Assembly: GCA_902810745.1 (NCBI GenBank)
Contig: CADDYW010000007.1
Span: forward strand, 1 to 64,000
Direction of reading: 5' to 3'
Source of the DNA: Chloroflexota bacterium
Lineage (GTDB): Bacteria > Chloroflexota > UBA6077 > FW602-bin22 > CADDYW01
Length of the DNA: 64,000 nt
This document shows positions 6,358-46,252 of the stretch, in pieces. Below the pieces are notes generated by a model. It saw nothing but the letters and a program-made list of their open reading frames with translations, did not search any database and was not told where the DNA came from. Position 1 is the first letter of the stretch, and every line of letters starts with the position of its first letter. Both the position numbers and the translations under genes were made by a program.

Positions 6358-6779
6358 TCAACCCATTCCTCGCCGTCTGGACCAATCTCCTTCTTCCAGA
6401 TCGGGACCTCCTCTTTCAGCCGATCGATCGCGTATTCACAGGCTTCGAAGGCCTGCTTCCGATGCGGCGTTCCCACGGCGATAACCACGCTCGGTTCGCC
6501 GACGGCAAGACGGCCAACACGGTGGGTCATTGCCACGCGGTCGATCCCCCAGCGGCGGCGAATCTCCTCGGCGATCTCGGCCATCTTTGCCTCGGCCATC
6601 TCCTGGTACGCCTCGTAATGCAGGTAGCTGGTCCGGCGCCCGCTGAGGGCATGGTCGCGAACGACGCCGTAGAAGACGCAGATCGCGCCGTTTCCCGGAT
6701 GCTCGACGCGGCGGATCACTTCATTCGCGTCGATCGGGTAGTCGACGACCTGAAACGGTCGATCGATCTCGGTGACCAC
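6354..6779 (-). CDS. moaE: Molybdopterin synthase catalytic subunit
   Basis: MoaE, 141 aa, the large subunit that uses two MoaD thiocarboxylates to convert precursor Z (cPMP) to molybdopterin in the cytoplasm. The family signatures are GAICVFYGVVRDH near residue 32-44, YLHYEAY, HRVGRLAVGE and VGTPHRKQAFEACEYAID, and the catalytic Lys-containing stretch EEVPIWKKE near the C-terminus. The GTG start at 6779 is preceded by GGAGGGG. It lies 2 bases after the moaD stop and overlaps the ComD-like start. Confidence 0.95.
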   Translation of the reverse strand: MVTEIDRPFQVVDYPIDANEVIRRVEHPGNGAICVFYGVVRDHALSGRRTSYLHYEAYQEMAEAKMAEIAEEIRRRWGIDRVAMTHRVGRLAVGEPSVVIAVGTPHRKQAFEACEYAIDRLKEEVPIWKKEIGPDGEEWVE

Positions 6780-6781
6780 GG

Positions 6782-7102
6782 TTATCCCCTCCCGCCGGCG
6801 ACAGGTGGGATCAAGGCTACCTCGTCGCCGTCGTGCAGAATGGTAGATCGGGCGGCGTACTGACGGTTGACCGCGAATCGTGCCACGTCGATGGTCCTTT
6901 CGAGGTCAGGGGATTCGCGGCAGAGAGCCAGCGCCAGATCCTCGACGGTAGCGCCGTCAGGGAGATCCAGGGTGAGATGGTCGGTTCCCAGCCTTTCCCG
7001 ATGAGCGGCAAAGAGGCGTACGTGAATGTGCAATCTAACCTTCTCTGCACCGAATTCGTGATGCTCTGACGATAGCGCGGCCGGCGCTCCTGCTTCAGTC
7101 AC
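6782..7102 (-). CDS. moaD: Molybdopterin synthase sulfur carrier subunit with extended C-terminus
   Basis: A ubiquitin-fold MoaD protein of up to 106 aa. The core VRLFAAHRERLG, LDLPDGATVEDL and AVNRQYA...L.DGDEVALIPPV is typical. MoaD normally ends exactly in Gly-Gly, whose last carboxylate is adenylated and thiolated; here the reading ends in PPVAGGRG, two residues (Arg-Gly) past the GG. Either the tail is trimmed before activation, or the enzyme tolerates it, or the terminal glycine of RG is used. The start used here is a GTG at 7102; the first ~20 residues are outside the conserved fold and a start closer to the VRLHIHVR strand is possible. Confidence 0.88.
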   Translation of the reverse strand: MTEAGAPAALSSEHHEFGAEKVRLHIHVRLFAAHRERLGTDHLTLDLPDGATVEDLALALCRESPDLERTIDVARFAVNRQYAARSTILHDGDEVALIPPVAGGRG

Positions 7103-7797: not shown

Positions 7798-7827
7798 TTG
7801 ACTGGTGTTCCCCGACGTAGTTACAAT
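7798..7827 (+). promoter_or_regulatory. Sigma-70-type promoter for the small membrane protein gene
   Basis: TTGACT at 7798-7803 and TACAAT at 7822-7827 are separated by 18 bp, directly upstream of AAGGAGG and the GTG at 7853. Confidence 0.6.
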
Positions 7828-7852
7828 AGGCGATAAGGAGGCGACGGGCAAG

Positions 7853-8266
7853 GTGCCGGAGAAATACGAACGCGAGATCGAAGAGATCCTTCGCAAGGTG
7901 TCATTTTCGGCGCCCGAGGGTAGCCATCGTTCCTCCGGCTGGATGAGCGATCTGGCTTCGATCTGGCGGCAACACACTGCCGACGTGTCTCCCACGCGCT
8001 TGCTGGTCCTCGGGATGGTATTGGCGCTGGTTGGCTACTTCCTGCGTGAGCTCGTCCCGGGGCTAGGTTTTCCGACAAGCGTGCTTGCCTTGGCATTTCT
8101 TGTCGGAGGACTGATCCTATCGATGAGCCAACGGAACTCGCGCCAGCCATCTCGCTGGCGTGGACAGGACATCAGCATACCCATGGATACCTTCTGGACC
8201 AGGTTGAAAGAACGCTGGGATAACTGGCGGCGCCGTCGGCGCTGGGACGATCCGGGCTGGCACTGA
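7853..8266 (+). CDS. Small two-helix membrane protein, unknown function
   Basis: About 137 aa. A charged N-terminal helix (PEKYEREIEEILRKV) is followed by a linker, two predicted transmembrane segments (LLVLGMVLALVGYFL and TSVLALAFLVGGLIL, the pair separated by a short loop), and an Arg/Trp-rich cytoplasmic tail (LKERWDNWRRRRRW). I do not recognise a family with a known role. The GTG at 7853 follows AAGGAGG and a good promoter, which supports expression; an in-frame ATG-like reading from 7805 would start inside the promoter. Confidence 0.65.
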   Translation: MPEKYEREIEEILRKVSFSAPEGSHRSSGWMSDLASIWRQHTADVSPTRLLVLGMVLALVGYFLRELVPGLGFPTSVLALAFLVGGLILSMSQRNSRQPSRWRGQDISIPMDTFWTRLKERWDNWRRRRRWDDPGWH

Positions 8267-8371: not shown

Positions 8372-8716
8372 GTGCCCAAAAAGCGCCTCAGCCGAAGTAG
8401 TCTTCTCTGGTTCATCCGCAGCCGCTCATACGTCAGCATCCCGGACATCCGCCGGCGGTTCAACCTCCCGTCCGACAATGAAGTCACCCCGATCCTCGGT
8501 CCCCAGGGGCGAGTGTACGTCGGCTTACCACCAGACGCGGCGCGCATTCTCGGCGAGCTGGTGCGCGATGGGCGCGTTGGACTGGAGCTTGAGCCCGAGA
8601 TTCACGCGCGGGCGGCAACGGGCGTCTATGTCATTCCACATCCGCACGATCGAGCCACGCCGACGGCGGAAGGGGAAGAAGAGGAGACAGACGGTGAGCC
8701 AGCCGCGGCGTCGTGA
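8372..8716 (+). CDS. Small hypothetical protein with possible helix-turn-helix
   Basis: A 114-aa protein starting at GTG 8372. The middle part (SYVSIPDIRRRFNLPSDNE followed by ILGPQGRVYVGLP and an AARILGELVRDGRVGLE helix) looks like a small winged-helix or DNA-binding fold, and the last 20 residues are acidic low complexity. Codon usage fits the neighbourhood. It is convergent with infC, 9 bp apart. I do not recognise a named family. Confidence 0.55.
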   Translation: MPKKRLSRSSLLWFIRSRSYVSIPDIRRRFNLPSDNEVTPILGPQGRVYVGLPPDAARILGELVRDGRVGLELEPEIHARAATGVYVIPHPHDRATPTAEGEEEETDGEPAAAS

Positions 8717-8725
8717 CGGTACGAC

Positions 8726-9304
8726 CTAGCTAACGGGCGTCGTCGGAGGCGACGCCGTCGGAGCCGCGGCGGCCGGTACTGCGCTCGACGAGCGGCCGGT
8801 CGCAGCGGTGAGAATCATCGACATCGTCCGACCTTCGACGACGGGTGGGCGCTCGACGACGGCCACGCCTTGAAGCTTCGCCAGGATCGAGTCCAGTACC
8901 TGGCGACCAAGCTGTGGGTGGGCCATCTGGCGACCCCGGAATCGAACCGTAACCTTGACCTTGTCTCCTTCTTGGAGGAACTTCTGGATCGCCCGGCTTT
9001 TGAAGGCGAGGTCGTGCTCGTCGGTCGACGGGCCCATGCGCACTTCTTTGAGCAGGGCGACCTTCTGGTTCTTGCGCGCGTCGCGCTCTTTCTTCTCTTG
9101 CTCGAACTTATAGCGTCCGTAGTCAAGCAGACGGCAGACCGGGGGAACCGCCGTTGGGGCAACCTCGACAAGGTCGGTGTTATGATCCTGCGCGAGCCGT
9201 AGCGCTTCATAGAGGGGAAGAACGCCAAATTGCTCGCCGTTCTCGCCGATAACCCGGACCTCCCGGGCTCGGATGCGCTCATTGACGCGGAGATCTTTGC
9301 TAAT
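8726..9304 (-). CDS. infC: Translation initiation factor IF-3, AUU start codon
   Basis: IF-3 binds the 30S subunit, checks start-codon/initiator pairing and prevents 50S joining. The frame from 9304 reads ISKDLRVNERIRAREVRVIG, then GVLPLYEALRLAQ, DLVEVAPTAVPPVCRLLDYG, RYKFEQEKKERDARKNQK and the C-terminal domain (EVRMGP, HDLAFKSRAIQKFL, GDKVKVTVRFRGRQ). There is no ATG, GTG or TTG in frame upstream of the conserved N-terminus before the TGA at about 9316; instead ATT at 9304 follows GGAGAGGTGA with 6-nt spacing. AUU is the start codon of infC in Escherichia coli, where IF-3 represses its own translation by rejecting it. Protein length is then 192 aa including an Ala/Pro/Thr-rich tail. rpmI and rplT do not follow; the next gene is convergent. 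Confidence 0.93.
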   Translation of the reverse strand: MSKDLRVNERIRAREVRVIGENGEQFGVLPLYEALRLAQDHNTDLVEVAPTAVPPVCRLLDYGRYKFEQEKKERDARKNQKVALLKEVRMGPSTDEHDLAFKSRAIQKFLQEGDKVKVTVRFRGRQMAHPQLGRQVLDSILAKLQGVAVVERPPVVEGRTMSMILTAATGRSSSAVPAAAAPTASPPTTPVS

Positions 9305-9504
9305 AGGTAGTCACCTCTCCGAAAGATGGCTGGATTTCCGGAACACGCGCTGCGCACCGCGTGTCCATGGACCAGATACAATGACAGCGCCTGCACGACT
9401 ATATCAGCGTTCAGACGCCCGATGTTGAATATACCATGCCCGCTAGCTGATCGTCAACCAGGTGGCGCCACGTCACGCCTGGAGAAGCAAGCGATAGACC
9501 GACC

Positions 9505-9532
9505 TTGACAAAACCCCTGCCGGGCGTAGAAT
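9505..9532 (+). promoter_or_regulatory. Sigma-70-type promoter for the oxidoreductase gene
   Basis: Consensus TTGACA at 9505-9510, 16-bp spacer, TAGAAT at 9527-9532; the ATG of the next gene is at 9566 after AAGGAGAGG. The region back to the infC start holds no gene. Confidence 0.7.
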
Positions 9533-9565
9533 TCGGTCGCCGTACATTGGTAAGGAGAGGGTCCC

Positions 9566-10768
9566 ATGTCAGAACAGGTTGGCTTTGTCACGATGGGAGA
9601 GACGAAGGGCCCGTCAGAGAATATTCCGACGATCGGCGTCGGAGTTCTCGGCTACGCTTTTATGGGCAAAGCCCACACCAACGCCTACAAGAAGCTCCCG
9701 TATATCTTCTGGCCCCCCGCGGCAATTCCACGGCTGATCTCGATTGCTGGCCGCTCGGAGAAGGCGGTCGCTGAGGCCGCGCGCCGCTACGGCTACGAAC
9801 GCTTTACGACGAACTGGCGTGACCTGGTCACGGATCCCGAGATCCAGATCTTCGACAACAGTGGTCCGAACAATCTGCACGCGGAGCCGTGCATCGCCGC
9901 GGCCGAGGCCGGCAAGCACATCATCTGCGAGAAGCCCCTGGCGCGAACCGCGGCCGAGGCCAGGCAGATGCTCGAGGCTGTTCGCACGGCTGGCGTCAAG
10001 CACGCCTGCGCGTTCAACTATCGGTTCGTCCCGGCGGTTCGCCAGGCTCGGCTTCTGATCGAGCAAGGAGCGCTTGGACGGATCTACCACTTTCGCGCTC
10101 GCTACCTTCAGGAGTGGATTGCTGATCCCGAGTTTGCCATGGTCTGGCGACTGGACAAGAGCGTAGCGGGCTCCGGCGCGCTTGGCGACCTCGGAGCACA
10201 CATCATCGATCTGGCGCGATTCCTCGTCGGCGAGCCTCGGGCGGTGAACGGCCTGACGACGACGTTCATCAAGGAGCGACCGCTTGGTGATGGCTCCGGG
10301 CGCAAGGCGACGGTCGACGTCGACGACGCGTTCGTCGCGCTGGTCGAGTTCGAGAACGGCGCCATCGGAACGCTGGAGGCAACGCGCTTCGCCACCGGCC
10401 GGAAGAACCACAACACGTTTGAGATCAACGGGTCCAAGGGAAGCATCAGTTTCAACCTGGAGCGCCTGAATGAGCTCGAGGTGTACCTCAACGACGCCGG
10501 TCCACGCGAAGCGCGCGGCTTTACCGACGTCCTGGTGACCGAGGCATTTCACCCGTTCTACGCAAACTGGTGGCCGCACGGGCACATCATCGGGTGGGAG
10601 CACACCTTCGTTCACGAGATCAATCACCTGATCGAGGCGATCGTGCAGGGGAAGACGGTGGAGCCCTACGGCGCGACGTTTGAAGATGGCTACCGCTGCG
10701 CCGTGATCTGCGATGCGATCGTGCAGTCATCCGAGAACGGCGGCGCCCGTGTTCCGATTGTGTACTAG
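9566..10768 (+). CDS. Gfo/Idh/MocA family NAD(P)-dependent oxidoreductase
   Basis: A 400-aa sugar or cyclitol dehydrogenase. The Rossmann fold starts with [18 protein letters not shown], the cofactor/substrate motif EKP is in IICEKPLAR near residue 135, and the catalytic region [18 protein letters not shown] carries the conserved Asp/His pair (GD...HxxD) of this family. The C-terminal half holds the beta-sheet substrate domain with a conserved [11 protein letters not shown]. Start ATG has AAGGAGAGG 7 nt upstream. It heads a run of same-strand genes (methyltransferase, second oxidoreductase, CYTH protein, aminopeptidase). The substrate cannot be assigned; inositol- and glucose-type sugars are typical. 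Confidence 0.9.
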
Positions 10769-10770
10769 AT

Positions 10771-11568
10771 GTGTTCGATGTCTTCGCCCGCTTCTACGAC
10801 CTCGATACCGAAGGACTAAACGCTGATCTCACCTTCTGGCTCCAGCTGGCCCGCCGCACCGGCGGGCCAGTTCTTGAGGTCGGCTGTGGCACCGGCCGTG
10901 TTCTCATTCCCCTCGCCGAGGCCGGCTTCTCAGTCGTGGGTATCGACGTCTCCCCGGCGATGCTGGCCGTTGCCCGTGAAAAGGTGAAGGCGCGCGGACT
11001 GGATGAGCGGGTCGACCTCGTCGAGTGCAATGCTCTTGACCTGAACCTGGGACGTACCTTCCCGCTCGTTTTCATGGCACTCAACTCATTCGGCCACTTT
11101 GCCGAGCCGGGCGAGCCCGAGCGTGCGCTGGAGCGGATGCGGGCGCACCTCGAACCGGGCGGCCTGCTCGCGCTGGACCTCACCAACCCGACTCCGGGAG
11201 CGTTCGGCGAGACGACGGGTTTGCTCATTCACGAGTACACGCGGCCTGGTCCTTGTCCGGGCTGGCAGACGGTCAAGCTGCGGAGCCAGTGGCAGAGCTT
11301 CGTCGCCCAGCGCATCGAGGTCAGCTGTATCTACGACGAGGTCAGTGCCTCGGGCGAGATTCGCCGAACGCTCGCTCCCTTTGCCCTGCGCTACTTCTAT
11401 CCGCAGGAGCTCCGGCTCCTCTTCGAGCGGGCCGGGCTGGTTCTCGAAGGGATGTACGGTAGCTACGACCTCGACCCGCTCGACGACGACAGTGATCGGC
11501 TGATCCCCATCGGGCGTAATCCTGTGCGCGGGGCCTCGTCGCGTGATCGCCGACAGCGGCACGCGTGA
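10771..11568 (+). CDS. Class I SAM-dependent methyltransferase
   Basis: A 265-aa methyltransferase. Motif I is VLEVGCGTGRVLIPLA, followed by GIDVSPAML (acidic loop), VECNALDL and LEPGGLLALDL. The N-terminal FARFYDLDT start resembles family members described as methyltransferase domain 25. The GTG at 10771 comes two bases after the oxidoreductase stop with no separate ribosome site, implying translational coupling. The last 15 residues are Arg-rich. Target unknown. Confidence 0.82.
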   Translation: MFDVFARFYDLDTEGLNADLTFWLQLARRTGGPVLEVGCGTGRVLIPLAEAGFSVVGIDVSPAMLAVAREKVKARGLDERVDLVECNALDLNLGRTFPLVFMALNSFGHFAEPGEPERALERMRAHLEPGGLLALDLTNPTPGAFGETTGLLIHEYTRPGPCPGWQTVKLRSQWQSFVAQRIEVSCIYDEVSASGEIRRTLAPFALRYFYPQELRLLFERAGLVLEGMYGSYDLDPLDDDSDRLIPIGRNPVRGASSRDRRQRHA

Positions 11569-11710
11569 TCGACGCGCAGCTGTGGAGCTGCCGCCGGGCA
11601 CGGCGCGGAGACCGAAGGCGTGGTGGGCGAGGGAGAGGGCCGGCGTGTCTATTGGAGATCTTTTGGGTTGGCCGGACTGGTCACTCACTGGTTCGTAGGG
11701 AGGAGGAGTC

Positions 11711-12766
11711 ATGCCAGATCTGATCGGCGTCGGAATCGTCGGAACCGGACTGAGCGCGACGATGCACGTTCAGGCGCTCGCACAAGTCCCTGGCGTGAAG
11801 GTGCTGGCGGTCGCGGGAACCTCGAAGGCAAAGGCCGAGGCTTTCGCCGCGCAATATGGCATCCCGGCGGCGTTCGCACGTGTCGAGGATCTCCTGGAGG
11901 CACGCGACATCCGCGCGATTCACCTCTGCACGCCGCCGTTTGCACGCGAATCCTACGTGGTGCAGGCGGCCCGCGCGGGCGTCCACGTCATGATCGAGAA
12001 GCCCATGGCGCGCAACGTCGCCGAGGCTGACCGGATCATCGCCGCCTGTCGCGCGGGTGGGGTGACCCTGGGTGCGATGTTCCAGTTCCGTTTTACGCCT
12101 CTTCCCCGAGCGATCAAGCGGGATCTCGACGCGGGAAGACTCGGGCGCATCTTCCTGGCGGACTGCTACGCGAAGTGGTGGCGTGAGCCATCCTATTACG
12201 CGAACAGCACCTGGCGCGGCCGGCGTGACCTGGAAGGAGGCGCGGTGCTGATCAACCAGGCGATCCACAGCATCGATCTCCTCCAGTGGCTCGCCGGGCC
12301 GGTCCGTCAGGTGGCGGCGCGGGTGACCACGGCCCTGCATCAGATCGAGATGGAAGACGTCGCCGTGGCGACCGTCGAATTCGCATCCGGAGCGCTCGGG
12401 ATGATCGAGGCGAGCACCGCGACCTATCCGGGCTATTCTGAGCGGATCGAGATTCACGGCGAGCGTGGATCGCTCGTTCTGAACCAGGGCGCGGGAGTCG
12501 CGGAGTGGCAGATCAAAGGGGCTGAGCCAGAACGCGTGACTGCTGCCGATCAGCGCGCGGAGTCGGCACGCGACCCCGCCAAGGTTTCGCTTGTCGGCCA
12601 TGTCGCGCAGTTTACCGATTACTACGATGCTTTGCGAGCCGGCCGTCCCCCGACTGTCGACGGCACCGAGGCACGAAAAGCGCTGGAGATTGTGGGGGCG
12701 ATTCAGCTTTCGGGTACTCGAGGCGGCGTCCCGGTGTCATTACCGCTGAAAGACGATGGAAACTGA
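11711..12766 (+). CDS. Gfo/Idh/MocA family oxidoreductase (second paralogue)
   Basis: A 351-aa paralogue of the protein at 9566, with the Rossmann start GVGIVGTGLSATMHVQAL, EKP in MIEKPMARN and the GAVLINQAIHSIDLLQW catalytic helix with the conserved His and Asp. An unusually strong ribosome site (GGGAGGAGGAG) precedes ATG 11711. The 140 bases before it contain nothing recognisable. Its last 11 bases overlap the next gene, so the two are coupled. The likely role is oxidation of a sugar or sugar acid; partner genes for a complete pathway are not seen apart from the first paralogue. Confidence 0.9.
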   Translation: MPDLIGVGIVGTGLSATMHVQALAQVPGVKVLAVAGTSKAKAEAFAAQYGIPAAFARVEDLLEARDIRAIHLCTPPFARESYVVQAARAGVHVMIEKPMARNVAEADRIIAACRAGGVTLGAMFQFRFTPLPRAIKRDLDAGRLGRIFLADCYAKWWREPSYYANSTWRGRRDLEGGAVLINQAIHSIDLLQWLAGPVRQVAARVTTALHQIEMEDVAVATVEFASGALGMIEASTATYPGYSERIEIHGERGSLVLNQGAGVAEWQIKGAEPERVTAADQRAESARDPAKVSLVGHVAQFTDYYDALRAGRPPTVDGTEARKALEIVGAIQLSGTRGGVPVSLPLKDDGN

Positions 12767-13265
12767 GGTCAAGATCGAGGTCGGAAACCTCGATCCCATC
12801 CGCGAGCGACTTCGAGCGCTTGGCGCCAGGTACGTCGGTGCCGTGGACGAGGAGAACGTCTACCTCGATCGCGACGGGGAGCTGACTGCCCGTGATGAGA
12901 GCTTGCGCCTGCGCCGTGACGAGGCGATTCGCCTGACGTGGAAAGGTGCCTCGCACTTTCACCAGGGTATTCTCACCCGTCCCGAGGTGGAGGTGACCGT
13001 CTCGAGCTTCGCGGATGCGCTCCTGATCCTGGAACAGCTCGGGTTTCGCGAGATCGATCGATTGGCAAAACGCCGCGAGACCTGGCAGCTCCCGGGCGTC
13101 CAGGTCACGCTCGACACGCTGGCCTTCGGAACGTTCGTCGAGTTGGAAGGCGACGCGGCGTCGATCGCCACGGCGGCAAACGCACTCGGCCTGGACGTCC
13201 ACCAGGGATTGCCGATGTCGTACCGAAAGCTGCAGCGGGAAAGGCGCCCGACTGGCGGTGTATAA
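12756..13265 (+). CDS. CYTH-domain protein (class IV adenylate cyclase/thiamine-triphosphatase fold)
   Basis: A 169-aa triphosphate-tunnel protein. The hallmark ExExK is at the N-terminus as METEVKIEV. Further charged strands line the tunnel: SLRLRRD, RLTWKGA, RPEVEVTVS, KRRETW and FVELEGD. The length suits the short CyaB-like branch. Members hydrolyse inorganic triphosphate or thiamine triphosphate or make cAMP; sequence alone does not decide. The gene overlaps the previous oxidoreductase by 11 bp and its stop codon lies inside the TATAAT that precedes the aminopeptidase. Confidence 0.88.
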   Translation: METEVKIEVGNLDPIRERLRALGARYVGAVDEENVYLDRDGELTARDESLRLRRDEAIRLTWKGASHFHQGILTRPEVEVTVSSFADALLILEQLGFREIDRLAKRRETWQLPGVQVTLDTLAFGTFVELEGDAASIATAANALGLDVHQGLPMSYRKLQRERRPTGGV

Positions 13266-13266
13266 T
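13261..13266 (+). promoter_or_regulatory. -10 box before leucyl aminopeptidase
   Basis: A perfect TATAAT at 13261-13266, about 47 bp before the aminopeptidase ATG; no good -35 at 17 bp. It could start a separate pepA transcript inside the operon. Confidence 0.4.
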
Positions 13267-13312
13267 CCGGTCAGACAATGAGGTCACTGGTCCGTTGCCA
13301 GGAAGAGGGAAG

Positions 13313-14845
13313 ATGGTGTCCTTGAGCGTCGCGGTCTCGGCGCAGGACCCCGCGGCGTGCGCGGTAGACGCGCTCGTGATCAACGTTTTCGAGGGAGAAA
13401 AGGTCTCCGAATGTACGCTTGCCTCGCTGGATCAGAAGCTGCGGGGAGCGCTCGCACGCCTCGCAGATCTGGGCGAGCTCGATGGCAAGCTGTACCGAAC
13501 TACTCTGGTTCCAACGGAAGGTCTGATCGCGGCGCCACGACTGCTCCTCGTTGGAAGTGGCAAACGCGTCGAGTTCGACAACAATCGCGCGAGGAATGTC
13601 GCCGGTGCGGCAGTTCGGGCGCTCCTGAAACGTCCGATTACGACCGCCGCGATCTGGATTCGCGGTGCTTCTGACGGTGCGAATCTGGCCGCGGCAGTCG
13701 CCAACGGAGCAGTCCTGGCGACATTCGATCCAGGTGAGTACAAGACGAAGCGGGAGGAGCCGCTGCCGCGGCTCTCCCGTCTGACGATCCTCGAGTCGAG
13801 CGTCCAGCGCGCGGGCGCCGCGGAGATCGGAGCGAAGCGCGGGGCGCTGATCGGCGAGGCGGCCAACTTCGCGCGGCATCTTGCCAACGCCCCCGGGAAT
13901 GTCCTTACTCCCGAGAAGCTCGCCGAGGAAGCAGCGCGCGCCGCGTCCGAGTACGGCTTCGCAATCGAGGTGCTCGATCGCGCCCACATGGCTGCTCTCG
14001 GCATGGCTGCGCTCCTGGGCGTCGCCCAGGGCAGCGAGCAGCCCCCGATGACGATTGTCATGTCCTACCGTGGACGGGGGGGAGACGGGTATGATCTTGG
14101 CCTGATCGGCAAGGGAGTGACCTTCGACACGGGCGGCATCTCGATCAAGCCCGCCGAGAATATGTACCTGATGAAGGAGGACATGGCCGGCGCGGCCGCG
14201 ACGATCGGGGCGATGTGCGCGATCGCTCGCCTTGGCTTGCACGTGAACGTACTCGGCGTGGTTCCGGCGGTCGAGAATATGCCCTCGGGCCACGCGATGC
14301 GCCCGGGCGACGTTCTCACCGCGCTGAATGGCAAGACGATCGAGGTACTGAACACTGACGCCGAGGGCAGGATCATCCTCGCCGACGCGCTCTGCTACGC
14401 GCAGCGCCTGGGCGCGAAGCGGATCGTCGACGCGGCGACGCTGACCGGCGCGGTCGTCGTCGCGCTTGGCCACCAGGCCGTTGGCTTGCTCGGCACGCCC
14501 CAGGAGTGGGTCGATCAGGTGAAGGATGCATCGGAGAAGGCTGGCGAACGGCTGTGGCAGCTACCGCTCTTCGACGAGTACGCTCAGCAGCTGAAGAGCG
14601 AGATCGCCGACGTCGCGAATGTCGGGGGGAGAGCAGCCGGAACGATCACCGGGGCGATGTTCATTCGTCAGTTCGTGGACGAGGGCGTCGCCTGGGCACA
14701 CCTCGATATCGCGGGCACGGCCTGGACCGAGAAAGAAGAGCCCTATCTTGCCAAGGGCCCGACCGGCATCCCGCTCCGCACGTTCGTCTCGCTGGCACAG
14801 GCGCTCGAGCAGGGATCGACCCAGCCCGAAGGGACGCCCGAGTAG
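13313..14845 (+). CDS. pepA: Leucyl aminopeptidase (M17 family)
   Basis: Cytosolic di-zinc/manganese exopeptidase that removes N-terminal residues from peptides. 510 aa. The catalytic C-terminal domain shows GKGVTFDTGGISIKP (metal-binding Lys and Asp), MKEDMAGAA, and the NTDAEGRIILADAL signature with the Asp, Glu and Arg of the active site. The N-terminal macro-like domain precedes it, with EAANFARHLANAPGN at the junction. ATG 13313 has AGAGGGAAG upstream; an in-frame reading extends to 12938 but runs over the CYTH gene and is not real. Predicted hexamer by family. Confidence 0.95.
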   Translation: MVSLSVAVSAQDPAACAVDALVINVFEGEKVSECTLASLDQKLRGALARLADLGELDGKLYRTTLVPTEGLIAAPRLLLVGSGKRVEFDNNRARNVAGAAVRALLKRPITTAAIWIRGASDGANLAAAVANGAVLATFDPGEYKTKREEPLPRLSRLTILESSVQRAGAAEIGAKRGALIGEAANFARHLANAPGNVLTPEKLAEEAARAASEYGFAIEVLDRAHMAALGMAALLGVAQGSEQPPMTIVMSYRGRGGDGYDLGLIGKGVTFDTGGISIKPAENMYLMKEDMAGAAATIGAMCAIARLGLHVNVLGVVPAVENMPSGHAMRPGDVLTALNGKTIEVLNTDAEGRIILADALCYAQRLGAKRIVDAATLTGAVVVALGHQAVGLLGTPQEWVDQVKDASEKAGERLWQLPLFDEYAQQLKSEIADVANVGGRAAGTITGAMFIRQFVDEGVAWAHLDIAGTAWTEKEEPYLAKGPTGIPLRTFVSLAQALEQGSTQPEGTPE

Positions 14846-14933
14846 GCGATATCGGGCCTACTGGTTCATTCCCTGCATCGTTCCGGGAAGGCGTCAGAAA
14901 AATCGCTCCGGAAGGACGTTTCCTCTCCTCCGC

Positions 14934-15956
14934 CTATCCTGAAGCCTCCCTCCGCCCGCGCTCTCGAGCGAGGCGGGCGGCGAGCCGAACCGCTTCGACC
15001 ATACTGCTATGGCTGGCGCGACCCTGGCCGGCAATATCGAACGCAGTCCCGTGATCCACTGACGTTCGGATGATCGGCAGACCGGCCGTCGTGTTCACGC
15101 CGGCTTCGAAGCCAAGCATCTTCACCGGAATGTGTCCCTGATCGTGGTACATCGCCACGACAACGTCAAACTCGCCGCGGCTGGCCCGATAGAAGATCGT
15201 GTCGCCTGGCCATGGGCCACTCGCGTCGATGCCTTCTTCGCGAGCTTCGTCGATCGCCGGCTTGATGTGGTCGATCTCCTCGGTGCCAAAGAGGCCGTTC
15301 TCACCCGCGTGGCAGTTGAAACCGGCCACGGCGACGCGCGGCCGGTCGACACCCAGAGACTGGCAAAAACGGTCGGCCAGCCGAATGATCCGCAGGACAC
15401 GCGAGCGATCGACCAGGTCGAGGGCCTGGCGCATCGACACGTGGGTGGTGACGTGGATGACCCGGAGCTTGCCGGCAATCAGCGCCAGCGAGTACTCGCG
15501 CGCCCCGGTCAGCGAGGCGAGCATCTCGGTGTGCCCCGGATAATGAAAGCCTGCCTGATTGAGTGCATCCTTATTCAACGGCGCCGTCGCGATCGCATCG
15601 ACCTTGCCGGCCATCGCCAGCTCGGCGGCCTTGATGACACACTCGGCGGCGGCCTTGCCGGCGGCGGCCTGCACTCTTCCCGTGACGATACTCTGAAGGT
15701 CGTCGGTCGTCGCCTGGAGAAGATCAAGCGTACCGTGGACGTAGCATCCGTCCGAGGGCTCGCGAACCTCGTGGATATCCAGCCTCAAACCGAATGCGGC
15801 GATGGCGCGGCGGAATGTTCCGACGTTGCCAATCGCGAGGGGACGGCACTCCTCGTACAGGCTGGGCTCGTTCATCGCCTTCACGACCACCTCCGGCCCG
15901 ATGCCAGCGGGATCGCCCATGGTTAGCCCGACAATCGGTCGCGTATCCGCGTTCAT
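14934..15956 (-). CDS. PdxA2-type phospho-four-carbon-acid dehydrogenase
   Basis: 340-aa member of the PdxA superfamily with GLTMGDPAGIGPEVV at the N-terminus, the substrate/metal residues in GFHYPGHTEML and THVSMRQAL, and GPWPGDTIFYRA and AMYHDQGHIPVK in the C-terminal half. Classical PdxA makes 3-amino-2-oxopropyl phosphate for vitamin B6, but when paired with a DUF1537 kinase, as here (ATGA overlap with the gene upstream), the family member is known to oxidise 4-phospho-D-erythronate or 4-phospho-threonate. I therefore favour a catabolic role. No decarboxylase, isomerase or DeoR regulator lies next to it. Confidence 0.88.
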   Translation of the reverse strand: MNADTRPIVGLTMGDPAGIGPEVVVKAMNEPSLYEECRPLAIGNVGTFRRAIAAFGLRLDIHEVREPSDGCYVHGTLDLLQATTDDLQSIVTGRVQAAAGKAAAECVIKAAELAMAGKVDAIATAPLNKDALNQAGFHYPGHTEMLASLTGAREYSLALIAGKLRVIHVTTHVSMRQALDLVDRSRVLRIIRLADRFCQSLGVDRPRVAVAGFNCHAGENGLFGTEEIDHIKPAIDEAREEGIDASGPWPGDTIFYRASRGEFDVVVAMYHDQGHIPVKMLGFEAGVNTTAGLPIIRTSVDHGTAFDIAGQGRASHSSMVEAVRLAARLARERGRREASG

Positions 15957-17245
15957 CGCCGCATCTCCTTCAATACGTTCACGACCTCCACCAGCGTGTC
16001 CACGTCTCCAAAACCGCCCGCCTTGGTCACGACCGGCAGGCCATCTCCGCGACCATCGCCCAGGCTTATCGGGATACCGGGCGCTGCCTCGCGCTGAATG
16101 TCGAGGCCGTGCACGCCAAGTGCGACACAGACCGCCCGAGCGGTATCGCCGCCGGTGAGGATCAGCGCGCCTGGCGTGGCGTCCCTCATCGCCAGGCTGA
16201 CCGCTCGCCCGAGCGCACCAACCAACTGCTCGGTCGCCTCACGCAGATCCACTCCGTGCGTCCGGGCGATCTGGTCGAGGTTCGGCGGCTCTTCGCGGGG
16301 ATCGACAAGCGAAAGTACGATGCTTGTGCTCTTGCTGCCGGGCGCGGTCAGTGCTCGGATAAGTTCTCCGGCAGCGCCGCGCGCCGTGGTTTCTGGCGCT
16401 TCCAGGCCAGGGTCAGGGGATACGCGAATCAGGCAGGCTCCCAGGTCAAGCAATCGCGCGACCTGTGCCAGGCCGAGCCGGTTCATCGTTCCGGCCACGA
16501 TCAGAACCGGATCGTGGCTGATGGTGATCTCACGAGGAACGTGCGCTGATCGGGCTCCCGATACGTCCAGCCATTCGGCCAACCCGGCCGAGCCAACCGG
16601 CAGGACCCGGTCTCCCAGCTCTCGAACGGCTTCGATCAGCGAGCGCAGGTCGGCGGCTGACTCAGCATCGGCGACGACCAGGCGGGCGCCCTGGCCTGAA
16701 AGGGCCGCCAGGCGATCAGCCAGATGCGGCAGCCCGCTCCTCACCTCGTCCAGGGAGAGAGAGCCGATCGGCAGGGATGTCTGCCGCTGCAGAATCTGCT
16801 CGATCGAGGCTGTCGTCGCGGGCCACAGAGGGTCGTGTGCAAACTCGGTCTGATCGACGGGCAGATCTCGCACGTGGATCGCCCCGTGGCAGACCGTGCG
16901 CCCGAGAGGGGGAAAGGCGGGACAGATCAGCGCCAGGGGCACGCTCAGCGCGTCGAGCATCGCCTCGATCTCGGCTCCGAGGTTGCCGCGACCGGTCGAA
17001 TCAATCTTCTTGTAGAAGCGCCGGATCCCCGCCTCCCGAAGGCGCCGCGTCGCCTCGAAGACGCGCTGTCGGGCATCGGCCGCGGACCGAGCGCGCGAGT
17101 CGGTGTCGAAGACGAGGACGTCGCACTCGGGACTCGCAGACCAGTCGAGCGAGACGTAGGTTCGGCGTCCACGCTTGGCGAACTGGAGACCGGTGTCGGT
17201 CGCACCGGTCAGGTCGTCAGCCAGGATTCCGAGCTCCGGCTGCAC
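15953..17245 (-). CDS. Four-carbon acid sugar kinase (DUF1537 family)
   Basis: 430 aa. N-terminal domain begins LGILADDLTGATDTGLQF and contains FYKKIDSTGRGNLGAEIE, the ATP/sugar domain signature; the C-terminal nucleotide-binding domain ends with LILTGGDTARAVC and TKAGGFGD. The family phosphorylates D-threonate, L-threonate or erythronate at O4, making the substrate for the PdxA2 dehydrogenase directly downstream. GTG 17245 is preceded by GCGGAGG. The stop of this gene overlaps the PdxA2 ATG by four bases. Confidence 0.9.
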   Translation of the reverse strand: MQPELGILADDLTGATDTGLQFAKRGRRTYVSLDWSASPECDVLVFDTDSRARSAADARQRVFEATRRLREAGIRRFYKKIDSTGRGNLGAEIEAMLDALSVPLALICPAFPPLGRTVCHGAIHVRDLPVDQTEFAHDPLWPATTASIEQILQRQTSLPIGSLSLDEVRSGLPHLADRLAALSGQGARLVVADAESAADLRSLIEAVRELGDRVLPVGSAGLAEWLDVSGARSAHVPREITISHDPVLIVAGTMNRLGLAQVARLLDLGACLIRVSPDPGLEAPETTARGAAGELIRALTAPGSKSTSIVLSLVDPREEPPNLDQIARTHGVDLREATEQLVGALGRAVSLAMRDATPGALILTGGDTARAVCVALGVHGLDIQREAAPGIPISLGDGRGDGLPVVTKAGGFGDVDTLVEVVNVLKEMRR

Positions 17246-44223: not shown

Positions 44224-44253
44224 TTGACAGTCCATGCCTAATCGCGCTAGGAT
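44224..44253 (+). promoter_or_regulatory. Promoter for TrmB-type regulator
   Basis: TTGACA at 44224-44229, 18-bp spacer, TAGGAT at 44248-44253, ahead of the regulator ATG at 44289. Confidence 0.5.
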
Positions 44254-44288
44254 AGTGGTTGCGTGTGCTACTACTATGCGAGCGCGGG

Positions 44289-45143
44289 ATGGATCTGGTC
44301 GAGCGGCTGACCGAGCTAGGATTCTCTCCCAACGAGGGACGGGTCTACGTCGCGCTGCTGAGGCAGCCTTCGGCGACGGGCTATGAGCTTGCGAAGGCCG
44401 CAGGACTTCCGCGTGCGAACGTCTATCAGGTTCTGGCGGGTCTCCTCGCGAAGAACGCGATTCAGCGGGTCGGGGACAGCCCGTCCCGCTACGTCGCTCA
44501 TGCGCCAGCCGAGGTCCTCGGCCGCATCAAGCGAGAGACGATGGCCCGTTGTGACGCGCTCACGGTCGAGCTCGAGGCACTCGCGCCACCGGCCGAGCCG
44601 ACGGCGTTCTGGACGCTGCGCGGACGCGACGCGGTTGTCGAGCAGGTCATCAGCCTGGTGGCGGGAGCGGTAGAGCGTATCGCGATCTGTCTGTGGTCCG
44701 ACGATCTTACCTGGCTGAGTGGACCGCTGCGCGAAGCACACCGCGCTGGCTGCCACGTCGTGATCAATCTGTTTGGCGATACCGAGCTCGAGTTTGGCGA
44801 GATCTACCGGCACGAGGACCCTTCGAAGGTGGTGGGAGGCCACCTGCTGACCCTGGCGGTGGACTCGAGCGCGGCGCTCGTCGCGGCCCTGGATGAGCCC
44901 TCGGGAGCCGTCTACACCCGACATCCCGCTCTCGTGCGGCTGGTCGAGAAGCTTATCCGCGACGAAGCATATCTGGCGGCGATCTACGAGCGGTTTCGGA
45001 ACGAGCTGGAAGCGGTGTACGGACCGCACCTGGTGGCGCTGCGTCGACGGTTGCTGCCGGTGGATCAGGCCGAGCGGCTCCTGGCGGTCGTCGGCTTCGG
45101 GGCTTCCTCCCATCGGGTCGACGCAATCCTCGCGGAGACGTAG
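44289..45143 (+). CDS. TrmB-family transcriptional regulator
   Basis: 284 aa. MDLVERLTELGFSPNEGRVYVALLRQPSATGYELAKAAGLPRANVYQVLAGLLAKNA is the TrmB winged-helix domain (helix-turn-helix around residues 30-55). The C-terminal part has a sugar-binding-like PLDc-like region with RIAICLWSDDLTWL and VVINLFGD. Such proteins repress or activate sugar or nucleotide metabolism genes. It precedes the PurA-like gene by 98 bp in the same direction, so may control it. Start: ATG 44289, though an in-frame TTG at 44259 exists. Confidence 0.85.
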   Translation: MDLVERLTELGFSPNEGRVYVALLRQPSATGYELAKAAGLPRANVYQVLAGLLAKNAIQRVGDSPSRYVAHAPAEVLGRIKRETMARCDALTVELEALAPPAEPTAFWTLRGRDAVVEQVISLVAGAVERIAICLWSDDLTWLSGPLREAHRAGCHVVINLFGDTELEFGEIYRHEDPSKVVGGHLLTLAVDSSAALVAALDEPSGAVYTRHPALVRLVEKLIRDEAYLAAIYERFRNELEAVYGPHLVALRRRLLPVDQAERLLAVVGFGASSHRVDAILAET

Positions 45144-45241
45144 ACCTGCCTCCGGTCGATGCCTGGCGGCCCGCAGCATGCCTGCCAACGGACGTTATCT
45201 CCCGAGCAATGGGACGACAAAAATAGAGTAAGGATGGATTC

Positions 45242-46252
45242 ATGGGTGCAGTGATCATCGTCGATGCGCTGTGGGGCGATTCTGGGAAGGGCAAGGCCTG
45301 CGCGTACCTGGCGCGCAAGCTGGACGCGTCGCTGGCGGTTCGCGCCGGAATCGGGACGAACGCTGGCGCCAGTATCATCCTCGACGATGATACGATGATC
45401 CGCGCCCGTCAGCTTCCAACGGGCTGGCTGAACGCGCACACGCGGGTGGCGGTCGGGTCGGGTGTGCTGGTGGATCCCAGCGTCTTCCTCGCCGAGGTCG
45501 AGCGCTTCGACATTCGTGATCGCGCATTCGTCGACTATCGCTGCGCCGTGATCACTCCCGAGCACATCGAGGCGGAGCGCCAGGACGCGAATCTCGCCAA
45601 GCGGGTCGGCTCGACCTGTACCGGGAACGGCTATGCCCGTTCCGATTTCGTCCTCCGTCGCGGCATTCAGGCCCGTGACGTCCCCGAGCTCAAGCCGTTC
45701 CTCACCGACGTCGCCCGCGAGGTGAACGAGGTCGCCGCTCGCGGGGTCGTCCTCGTCGAAGGATCACAGGGAACTTTGCTCTCACTGGCGCTCAGCCCGG
45801 ATTATCCCTTCACGACGTCGGATAACTGCACCGCGGCCGCGGCCATGGACGACGTCGGGCTGAACTGGCGCCTGGTCCAGGATGTCGTCATGGTGGTGAA
45901 GAGCATGCCGACCCGCGTTGGCGAGGGCCCTTTGCCCTACGAGATGACCGAGCAGGAGGCCCTGGCGCGCGGTGTCGCCGAATACGGCACGGTCACCGGG
46001 CGCATGCGCCGTAAAGCATCGCAGATCGATTGGGATCTGCTGGCCTACTCAGCGATGCTGAACGGTCCAACCCAGATTGCCCTGACCTTCTGCGATCATT
46101 ACGACCCCGCGATGAGACAGGCCCGCACCCGTGACGACATCACGCCACGCGTCCGAGAGCTGATCTCTCAGGTGGAGAAGGTCGCCGGTGCGCCGGTGAC
46201 CCTCGTCGATACGGGTAAGCACCTGAGTGAATTCATCGATCTGGCGCCGTAG
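45242..46252 (+). CDS. Short adenylosuccinate synthetase-like protein, altered catalytic residues
   Basis: 336 aa, close to the short archaeal PurA type rather than the ~430-aa bacterial type. The nucleotide-binding loop is WGDSGKGK (Asp13 retained, the canonical Glu14 is Ser) and the following motif is TNAGAS, where PurA has NAGHT: the catalytic acid His (His41 in E. coli) is Ala43 here. VGSTCTGNGYA replaces TGRGIGPAY and EGSQGTLL replaces EGAQGTLL. It may be a divergent PurA, a nonessential paralogue with another carboxylate or purine substrate, or a non-catalytic protein. ATG 45242 follows AAGGATGG; a TrmB regulator lies just upstream. Confidence 0.75.
   Translation: MGAVIIVDALWGDSGKGKACAYLARKLDASLAVRAGIGTNAGASIILDDDTMIRARQLPTGWLNAHTRVAVGSGVLVDPSVFLAEVERFDIRDRAFVDYRCAVITPEHIEAERQDANLAKRVGSTCTGNGYARSDFVLRRGIQARDVPELKPFLTDVAREVNEVAARGVVLVEGSQGTLLSLALSPDYPFTTSDNCTAAAAMDDVGLNWRLVQDVVMVVKSMPTRVGEGPLPYEMTEQEALARGVAEYGTVTGRMRRKASQIDWDLLAYSAMLNGPTQIALTFCDHYDPAMRQARTRDDITPRVRELISQVEKVAGAPVTLVDTGKHLSEFIDLAP

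Follow-up and report, generated by a model that had tools for sequence, protein, structure and literature searches.

The general base Asp13 and His41, which we take to be the general acid, form the textbook catalytic pair of adenylosuccinate synthetase (PurA), and mutagenesis of the E. coli enzyme indicates that loss of His41 and Glu14 should nearly abolish the reaction with IMP. PurA is inhibited by ppGpp. No paper dealing directly with His41 mutagenesis or with a resistant PurA was found in the literature search. The closest described systems are the archaeal-type short PurA, represented by Pyrococcus horikoshii PH0438 (structures 2d7u and 5k7x, profile NF003295), and PurZ/PurZ0, the 2-amino-2'-deoxyadenylosuccinate synthetase of Z-genome phages. 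In PurZ, Ser takes the place of Asp13 (PMC12884076); His52, the equivalent of His41, is in contact with the triphosphate, and Phe306 forms a stack with adenine (PMC8342488). A further PurA homologue lies in a 7-deazapurine cluster of Rhizobium leguminosarum, and on the side of regulation the closest described proteins are TrmB, TrmBL1 and TrmBL2.

Here we describe a PurA-like protein, termed PurAL, that is encoded behind a TrmB-type regulator within a 64,000-nucleotide stretch of Chloroflexota DNA (contig CADDYW010000007.1), hereafter the window. PurAL resembles archaeal-type PurA in length, fold, IMP and aspartate contacts and Asp13, and differs from it by the substitutions E14S, H41A, T42S, G8D and P209W, by Phe at the Lys331 position and Asp at the position of Ser400 (H. 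pylori), and in being a bacterial protein encoded behind a trmB gene. With PurZ it shares its short length and the Phe at the Lys331 position, whereas PurZ has Ser for Asp13 and keeps the His (10/10 rows) and PurAL has Asp (18/18) and has lost the His. The Rhizobium homologue (L094) falls like PurAL on the archaeal-type side of the tree, at 38% identity, but has both Glu14 and the His in place (GDEAKGK, GAGHT), and its neighbours are purB-like and queuosine-type genes. The regulator has the helix-turn-helix domain PF01978 and the start of PF11495 in common with TrmB, TrmBL1 and TrmBL2, yet it is shorter (284 aa), scores under every NCBIfam TrmB cut-off and has a putative inverted-repeat site of its own. 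PurAL is thus presented as a real, conserved PurA subfamily with its own TrmB regulator, which, judged from its sequence, lacks some of the defining features of the adenylosuccinate synthetase family (His41, Glu14). In a limited literature search no report was found of this subfamily, of a TrmB-PurA pair or of such a PurA paralogue.

Fold and sequence motifs

PurAL (45242..46252, forward strand, ATG start) comprises 336 residues and was placed in the PurA family by profile search (PF00709, E 7.4e-56, 190 bits against a cut-off of 27). The best-scoring named family was archaeal-type adenylosuccinate synthetase, the equivalog cut-off of which was narrowly missed (NF003295, 364.4 bits against 368), and PurAL was 46-47% identical to a Ferroglobus enzyme. 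The Pyrococcus PurA structures 2d7u and 5k7x were the closest solved relatives. An AF2 model of PurAL (pLDDT 87.1, pTM 0.89) superposed on P. horikoshii PurA 5k7x, which carries GTP, IMP and hadacidin as a full set of ligands, with a Z score of 47.1 and an rmsd of 1.5 A over 328 residues. Phage PurZ was rejected as an identity for the protein on account of the retained Asp13, for which PurZ would have Ser or Gly, a score far under the cut-off of the PurZ profile (NF038379, 110.4 bits against 300) and the finding of no relative in viral contigs; identity to the first phage row in the comparison was 29.4%.

Three motifs were located on the forward strand. The P-loop GDSGKGK (residues 12-18, 45275..45295) keeps Asp13 and Lys16 and has Ser for Glu14, the NAGAS motif (residues 40-44, 45359..45373) has Ala43 at the position of His41 (E. 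coli) and Ser44 at that of Thr42, and the guanine-recognition motif TFCD (residues 282-285, 46085..46096) has Phe283 at the position of Lys331 (E. coli) and keeps Asp285. GDSGKGK and TNAG(A/T)(S/T) were matched in frame in 20/21 distinct loci and are therefore real rather than sequencing noise; in the remaining locus, L093, which is disrupted further on, both motifs stand in the first frame. The first-pass annotation, drawn from the sequence of this stretch, had described a PurA fold with a GD.GKGK loop in a 336-aa protein, the changes of Glu14 to Ser and NAGHT to NAGAS, and a TrmB regulator 98 bp upstream, and in all of this it was borne out. Glu14 and His41 were found in 42/42 canonical archaeal and bacterial rows.

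Distribution and selection

Scanning of genome contigs returned nine loci at 56-83% identity (two Chloroflexi MAGs, two Actinopolymorpha, Longispora, Actinospica, two Microlunatus and Avipropionibacterium) and three more distant ones. PurAL was present in 3/29 genomes of the window's class, in 16/391 of the sample from one actinobacterial order and in 1/298 from another, and removal of duplicates left 21 distinct loci from Chloroflexota and Actinobacteria. In a tree of 75 rows, the 18 PurAL rows clustered as a single group (100/100) on the archaeal-type side, separate from both phage PurZ and a bacterial GSEGKG group; some long branches make the deeper joins unsure. The near-copies L082 and L083 (of L081) and the disrupted L093 were left out of both the tree and the column counts given below.

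The ratio dN/dS was 0.09-0.19 in 8/8 PurAL pairs, the first three of which were near saturation in dS. A degenerating pseudogene was rejected on the basis of these values and of the one family signature that is found across two phyla. A single disrupted copy was observed in L093 (G210, 1322-2196), where the frame shifts after about residue 68 and roughly 39 residues are missing; trmB, the putative operator and canonical purA are all present in this genome.

Active-site residues

Residue frequencies were compared between the 18 PurAL rows and 30 archaeal, 12 bacterial and 10 PurZ-type and phage rows. Part of the IMP and aspartate contact positions was assigned by what we take to be the E. coli numbering. 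Contacts were otherwise taken from H. pylori AdSS (PMC11276676) and PurZ (PMC8342488) and mapped by alignment. The IMP contacts named for the H. pylori enzyme in PMC11276676 were retained in PurAL, namely Arg135, Asn37, Thr230 and Arg294 in 18/18 rows, Gly119 and Val264 in 17/18 and Thr121 in 15/18 with Ser in the other three, so that each IMP and aspartate contact position was kept in 15-18 of the 18 rows. Asp13, Lys16, Gln224, Thr301 and Arg305 were found in 18/18 rows, Arg303 of the aspartate loop was invariant and the Mg-binding glycine was kept too. Across the family 11/14 contact residues were invariant as compared to 103/336 positions overall (p 2e-4).

The functionally striking changes fell instead on the phosphate-donor side, among the residues listed as donor contacts of H. 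pylori AdSS (Asp12-Gly16, Thr41, Lys322, Asp324 and Ser400-402; PMC11276676). Glu14 was replaced by Ser in 18/18 rows, the His41 position was occupied by Ala in 17 rows and Thr in one, compared to His in every one of the 52 rows outside PurAL (archaeal, bacterial, PurZ-type and phage), and Thr42 was replaced by Ser in 17/18. At the Lys331 position PurAL had Phe (18/18), compared to Gly in 29/30 archaeal rows and Lys or Arg in 12/12 bacterial rows, and the position of H. pylori Ser400 was occupied by Asp (18/18). Other PurAL-specific columns included Gly8 to Asp and Pro209 to Trp. By analogy with the stacking Phe of PurZ, Phe283 might point to ATP as donor; this is only a suggestion because Asp285, which reads guanine, was kept in 18/18 rows. 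In keeping Asp13 and dropping His41, PurAL is the mirror image of phage PurZ, and the division of labour between the two residues thereby becomes testable in natural variants.

Family-specific changes were also seen after Gln224 (Ser185, Asp/Glu187, Asn195, Cys196) and at Trp209. These bring in the chief rival to an enzyme acting on IMP, a rather unlikely one in our estimate, in which PurAL would be a succino-ligase that joins aspartate or a similar amino acid to a modified or deoxy 6-oxopurine nucleotide sensed by TrmB. Relatives of PurA have switched substrate at least once, as PurZ did with dGMP (PMC8342488, PMC12884076). The relative that is 38% identical lies in the Rhizobium cluster among folE, queD, queE, queC, nitrile hydratase, purB-like and IMPDH-like genes, and PurA homologues of deazapurine clusters have presumably changed substrate likewise. 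The retention of canonical purA in 19/21 carriers, documented below, would fit a separate job. The unchanged IMP-contact residues argue against another substrate, as does the finding that no pathway genes travel with the pair across phyla or actinobacterial genera, and the missing purA of two genomes would go unexplained unless adenine is salvaged.

The TrmB-type regulator and the pairing of the two genes

The regulator is encoded at 44289..45143 on the forward strand (ATG at 44289, stop ending at 45143; 284 aa), and an intergenic stretch of 98 bp (45144..45241) separates it from purAL. PF01978 (E 1.2e-16) and PF11495 (E 1.8e-6) were both matched in the window protein and in 10/10 TrmB members scanned. 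PF11495, the C-terminal sugar-binding TrmB domain, was aligned over 97/233 positions in the window protein, the model of which is poor past residue 190. The closest solved relative was Pyrococcus TrmB 3qph (E 2.8e-13, family profile). The predicted structure as a whole was poor (pLDDT 60.5), with the helix-turn-helix and the start of the next domain readable, and TrmBL2 and TrmB ranked first in a Foldseek search of it at low TM-scores.

A TrmB orthologue of 53-74% identity was found directly upstream of PurAL in 21/21 distinct loci. The distance between the genes ranged among relatives from a 4-bp overlap, seen in L039 and L040, up to 373 bp. Comparison of nine named loci, with flanks of up to 5 kb and with the PurAL of L036 missed by the ORF picker, gave TrmB and PurAL as the only neighbours common to the phyla or to the actinobacterial genera, and a larger biosynthetic cluster was rejected on this basis. 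In the Chloroflexota family two further genes, one SnoaL-type and one glycosyltransferase-like, also hold position near the pair; gene order is partly common to the three Chloroflexota carriers, and their PurAL proteins are 80.5-83.2% identical. On these comparative grounds, we take trmB-purAL to be a self-contained two-gene operon under purifying selection, and the pair to be one that moves as a unit between distant soil bacteria.

Promoter and putative operator

A sigma-70-like promoter, TTGACA-N18-TAGGAT, was found before the operon at 44224..44253 on the forward strand by a pattern scan (10/12 matches; shuffled sequences gave an expected mean of 0.3). Right after its -10 box lies the inverted repeat GTGGTTGC-GTGTG-CTACTAC (44255..44274, forward strand), the putative TrmB operator, which is the sole perfect match within the 64-kb window. 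A palindromic 20-bp site, GTRGTTGC-N5-CTACTAC, precedes trmB in 20/20 distinct loci with upstream sequence, a count that leaves out L033 as its record starts at the gene start. Out of the 15 specified columns, 12 were identical in all 20 loci, the R column was A in 18 and G in 2, and two columns had one exception each, a single base being off in L034 and in L084. In most actinobacterial loci the site stands, as read by eye, upstream of a TAG-containing box near the GTG start. No report of a palindromic TrmB-family operator in Actinobacteria was found in the limited literature search. With 21/21 loci and a common operator, the pair is linked far more tightly than the first-pass annotation of one locus could see, and the 20-bp site provides a direct starting point for finding out what the regulator senses.

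Away from the operon's own promoter, only two isolated matches with two mismatches were found in 192 records (861 kb) that include canonical purA, purB and purH loci. These matches, in L030 and L107, are probably chance occurrences, and an operator at canonical purA, purB or purH was rejected as none was present among the loci examined. The same result bears on whether PurAL could be a catalytically dead nucleotide binder that senses IMP, aspartate or GTP and acts as a co-regulator with TrmB, a reading that the loss of His41 and Glu14, the kept binding pockets, the constant pairing with a regulator and the 4-bp gene overlap in L039 and L040 would all suit. Within these records the pair has no apparent target other than itself, and a dead sensor regulating nothing but its own synthesis would have no output. 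Invariance of Asp13, Lys16, Gln224, Arg303 and Arg305 would moreover be unusual for a dead enzyme, and canonical purA is absent from two genomes (G000 and G002). We consider such a sensor improbable.

Canonical purA: loss and retention

A search for a canonical purA elsewhere in the genome, which the first-pass annotation had proposed as a check, returned no PF00709 gene other than PurAL in the window's assembly (G000; 5.59 Mb, 96.6% complete, 7.9% contamination). Within the window's family, G001 carries canonical purA alone, G003 both genes and G002 (94% complete, 6% contaminated) PurAL only. In G001 and G003, which represent two sister genera, canonical purA lies between the genes for a ~90-aa protein and ParA; identity is 71.4% between the two PurA copies and 57-84% for the flanking genes, as vertical descent predicts. 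At the matching locus in G000 (contig C139) and G002 (contig C359) the neighbours are kept and purA is absent, leaving a gap of about 50 bp. Both loci are assembled without runs of N and an assembly gap at this place was therefore rejected as the cause of the missing purA; it is possible that a relocated canonical purA lies inside an assembly gap of either genome. G000 and G002 each have purB and purH. In G003 no PurH match was obtained, from which it follows that assemblies of this kind easily miss a gene. The branching of the three Chloroflexota carriers was supported by 20, 16 and 15 informative columns for the alternative arrangements, which gives no decision, and loss of purA may accordingly have taken place once or twice.

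The 18/18 actinobacterial carriers and G003, that is 19/21 carriers, keep canonical purA, and PurAL is thus usually no replacement for it. Among relatives without PurAL, 5/38 were also without any PF00709 gene, so loss of purA with salvage is possible (2/3 vs 5/38, p 0.07). H. pylori deprived of purA requires adenine or adenosine (PMC6136348), and by the same token loss of purA without replacement would demand salvage. The two metagenome assemblies suggest that PurAL has stepped into the place of canonical purA in the organism of the window and in one relative.

An extra copy beside canonical purA in 19/21 carriers could also be read as an inducible back-up PurA that is insensitive to ppGpp or to a natural inhibitor such as hydantocidin phosphate, hadacidin or an alanosine product, and that would sustain AMP synthesis while these block canonical PurA. 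The distribution of PurAL is patchy (16/391, 1/298 and 3/29 genomes), it has its own regulator and putative operator, and its changes lie on the donor side, to which ppGpp as well as GTP binds. The aspartate loop, the binding place of hadacidin, is unchanged on the other hand, and no common biosynthetic genes are found nearby. A back-up of this kind amounts to the explanation preferred below with a named purpose added, one that would be wholly conjectural, and we rate it as slightly more improbable still than the dead sensor.

Several further observations were made on these genomes. No PF00709 match was obtained in G008, G027, G030, G035 (97% complete) and G038, which are possible adenine auxotrophs or may use another route. 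In several genomes of the order, a gene next to canonical purA encodes a protein of ~90-100 aa (RVVAFETLFPIWxDQVExRGGGVAFLPL; L005 1017-1289, L012 877-1158, L015 1162-1464, L140 ~7824-8078, L141 ~6604-6861), and G000 and G002 have retained it although they lack purA there. Drift is also seen in the remaining canonical PurA copies of the family (L005, L012), which have GDEGKGG and TNTGHT as compared to GDEGKGK and NAGHT.

Proposed function

The explanation that we prefer, with a probability of roughly 50%, is that PurAL is neither a decayed pseudoenzyme nor a PurZ but an inducible adenylosuccinate synthetase that is probably active and has had its donor site rebuilt. The TrmB-type regulator would bind GTRGTTGC-N5-CTACTAC at its own promoter. 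The predicted operator is placed over the start point in the window and over the -35 region in Actinobacteria, both of which would fit repression, and the regulator would then repress the operon until released by a ligand, probably purine- or nucleoside-related, where the sign of regulation and the ligand are guesses. PurAL itself would be an archaeal-type adenylosuccinate synthetase in which the sites for IMP, aspartate and Mg are kept, the base Asp13 among them, and the donor site is rebuilt by E14S, H41A, T42S, Phe at Lys331 and Asp at Ser400 (H. pylori). It would most likely join aspartate to IMP, or to a very close 6-oxopurine nucleotide, with a donor or transition-state arrangement that differs from GTP and His41, upon which the cell's PurB would complete the amination. 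PurAL would in this way replace canonical purA in the window's organism and one relative and serve as an extra isozyme elsewhere. We put forward more tentatively, at somewhat less than even odds, the fuller proposal of a working synthetase that needs neither His41 nor Glu14, either through use of another donor or through escape from control by GTP, ppGpp or an inhibitor, that moves as a cassette with its TrmB repressor and operator and that has displaced purA in some Chloroflexota.

The first-pass annotation had left the choice between a purine- or nucleotide-related enzyme with a changed reaction and a regulatory pseudoenzyme. An enzyme of purine nucleotides whose active site has changed, lying beside its regulator, holds up, and the pseudoenzyme is the weaker half given the kept contacts, 11/14 of them invariant, and the strong purifying selection. 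It had further named two observations that together would speak against its reading, that this be the only purA of the genome and that it complement a purA mutant, and the first of these agrees with what was found, as PurAL is alone in its assembly and the conserved locus of canonical purA lacks that gene. If PurAL works as PurA, then annotation overrates how universal canonical purA is, and such genomes would be misjudged by pathway tools in which it is called by a single cut-off.

Other PurA-like proteins

Further PurA-like groups were encountered in the course of the comparison. The Rhizobium leguminosarum locus L094 (NZ_CP050089.1, plasmid pRL23b2, typed conjugative; 8375-16722) holds a 7-deazapurine-type cluster with folE, queD, queE and queC together with genes for nitrile hydratase alpha, IMPDH-like, PurA-like and PurB-like proteins, a phosphoribosyltransferase and a HAD protein. 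It resembles toyocamycin-type pathways. Bacterial PurZ-like proteins (GSEGKG, NAGH) are present outside phages in L043, L044, L095-L098 and L168, the hosts being rhizobial and Methylobacterium replicons and three other bacteria. In L043, L044 and L168 a kinase-like stretch precedes the PurZ-like part of a long frame, and L043 and L044 have two more neighbours in common; in L097, SIR2 and AbiEi/AbiEii genes lie near the PurZ-like gene. A divergent PurA-like group of ~390-470 aa, with GD(A/E)GKG and a loop of the GGAQA(A/G)H type, was found beside canonical purA in L058, L153, L169 and L170.
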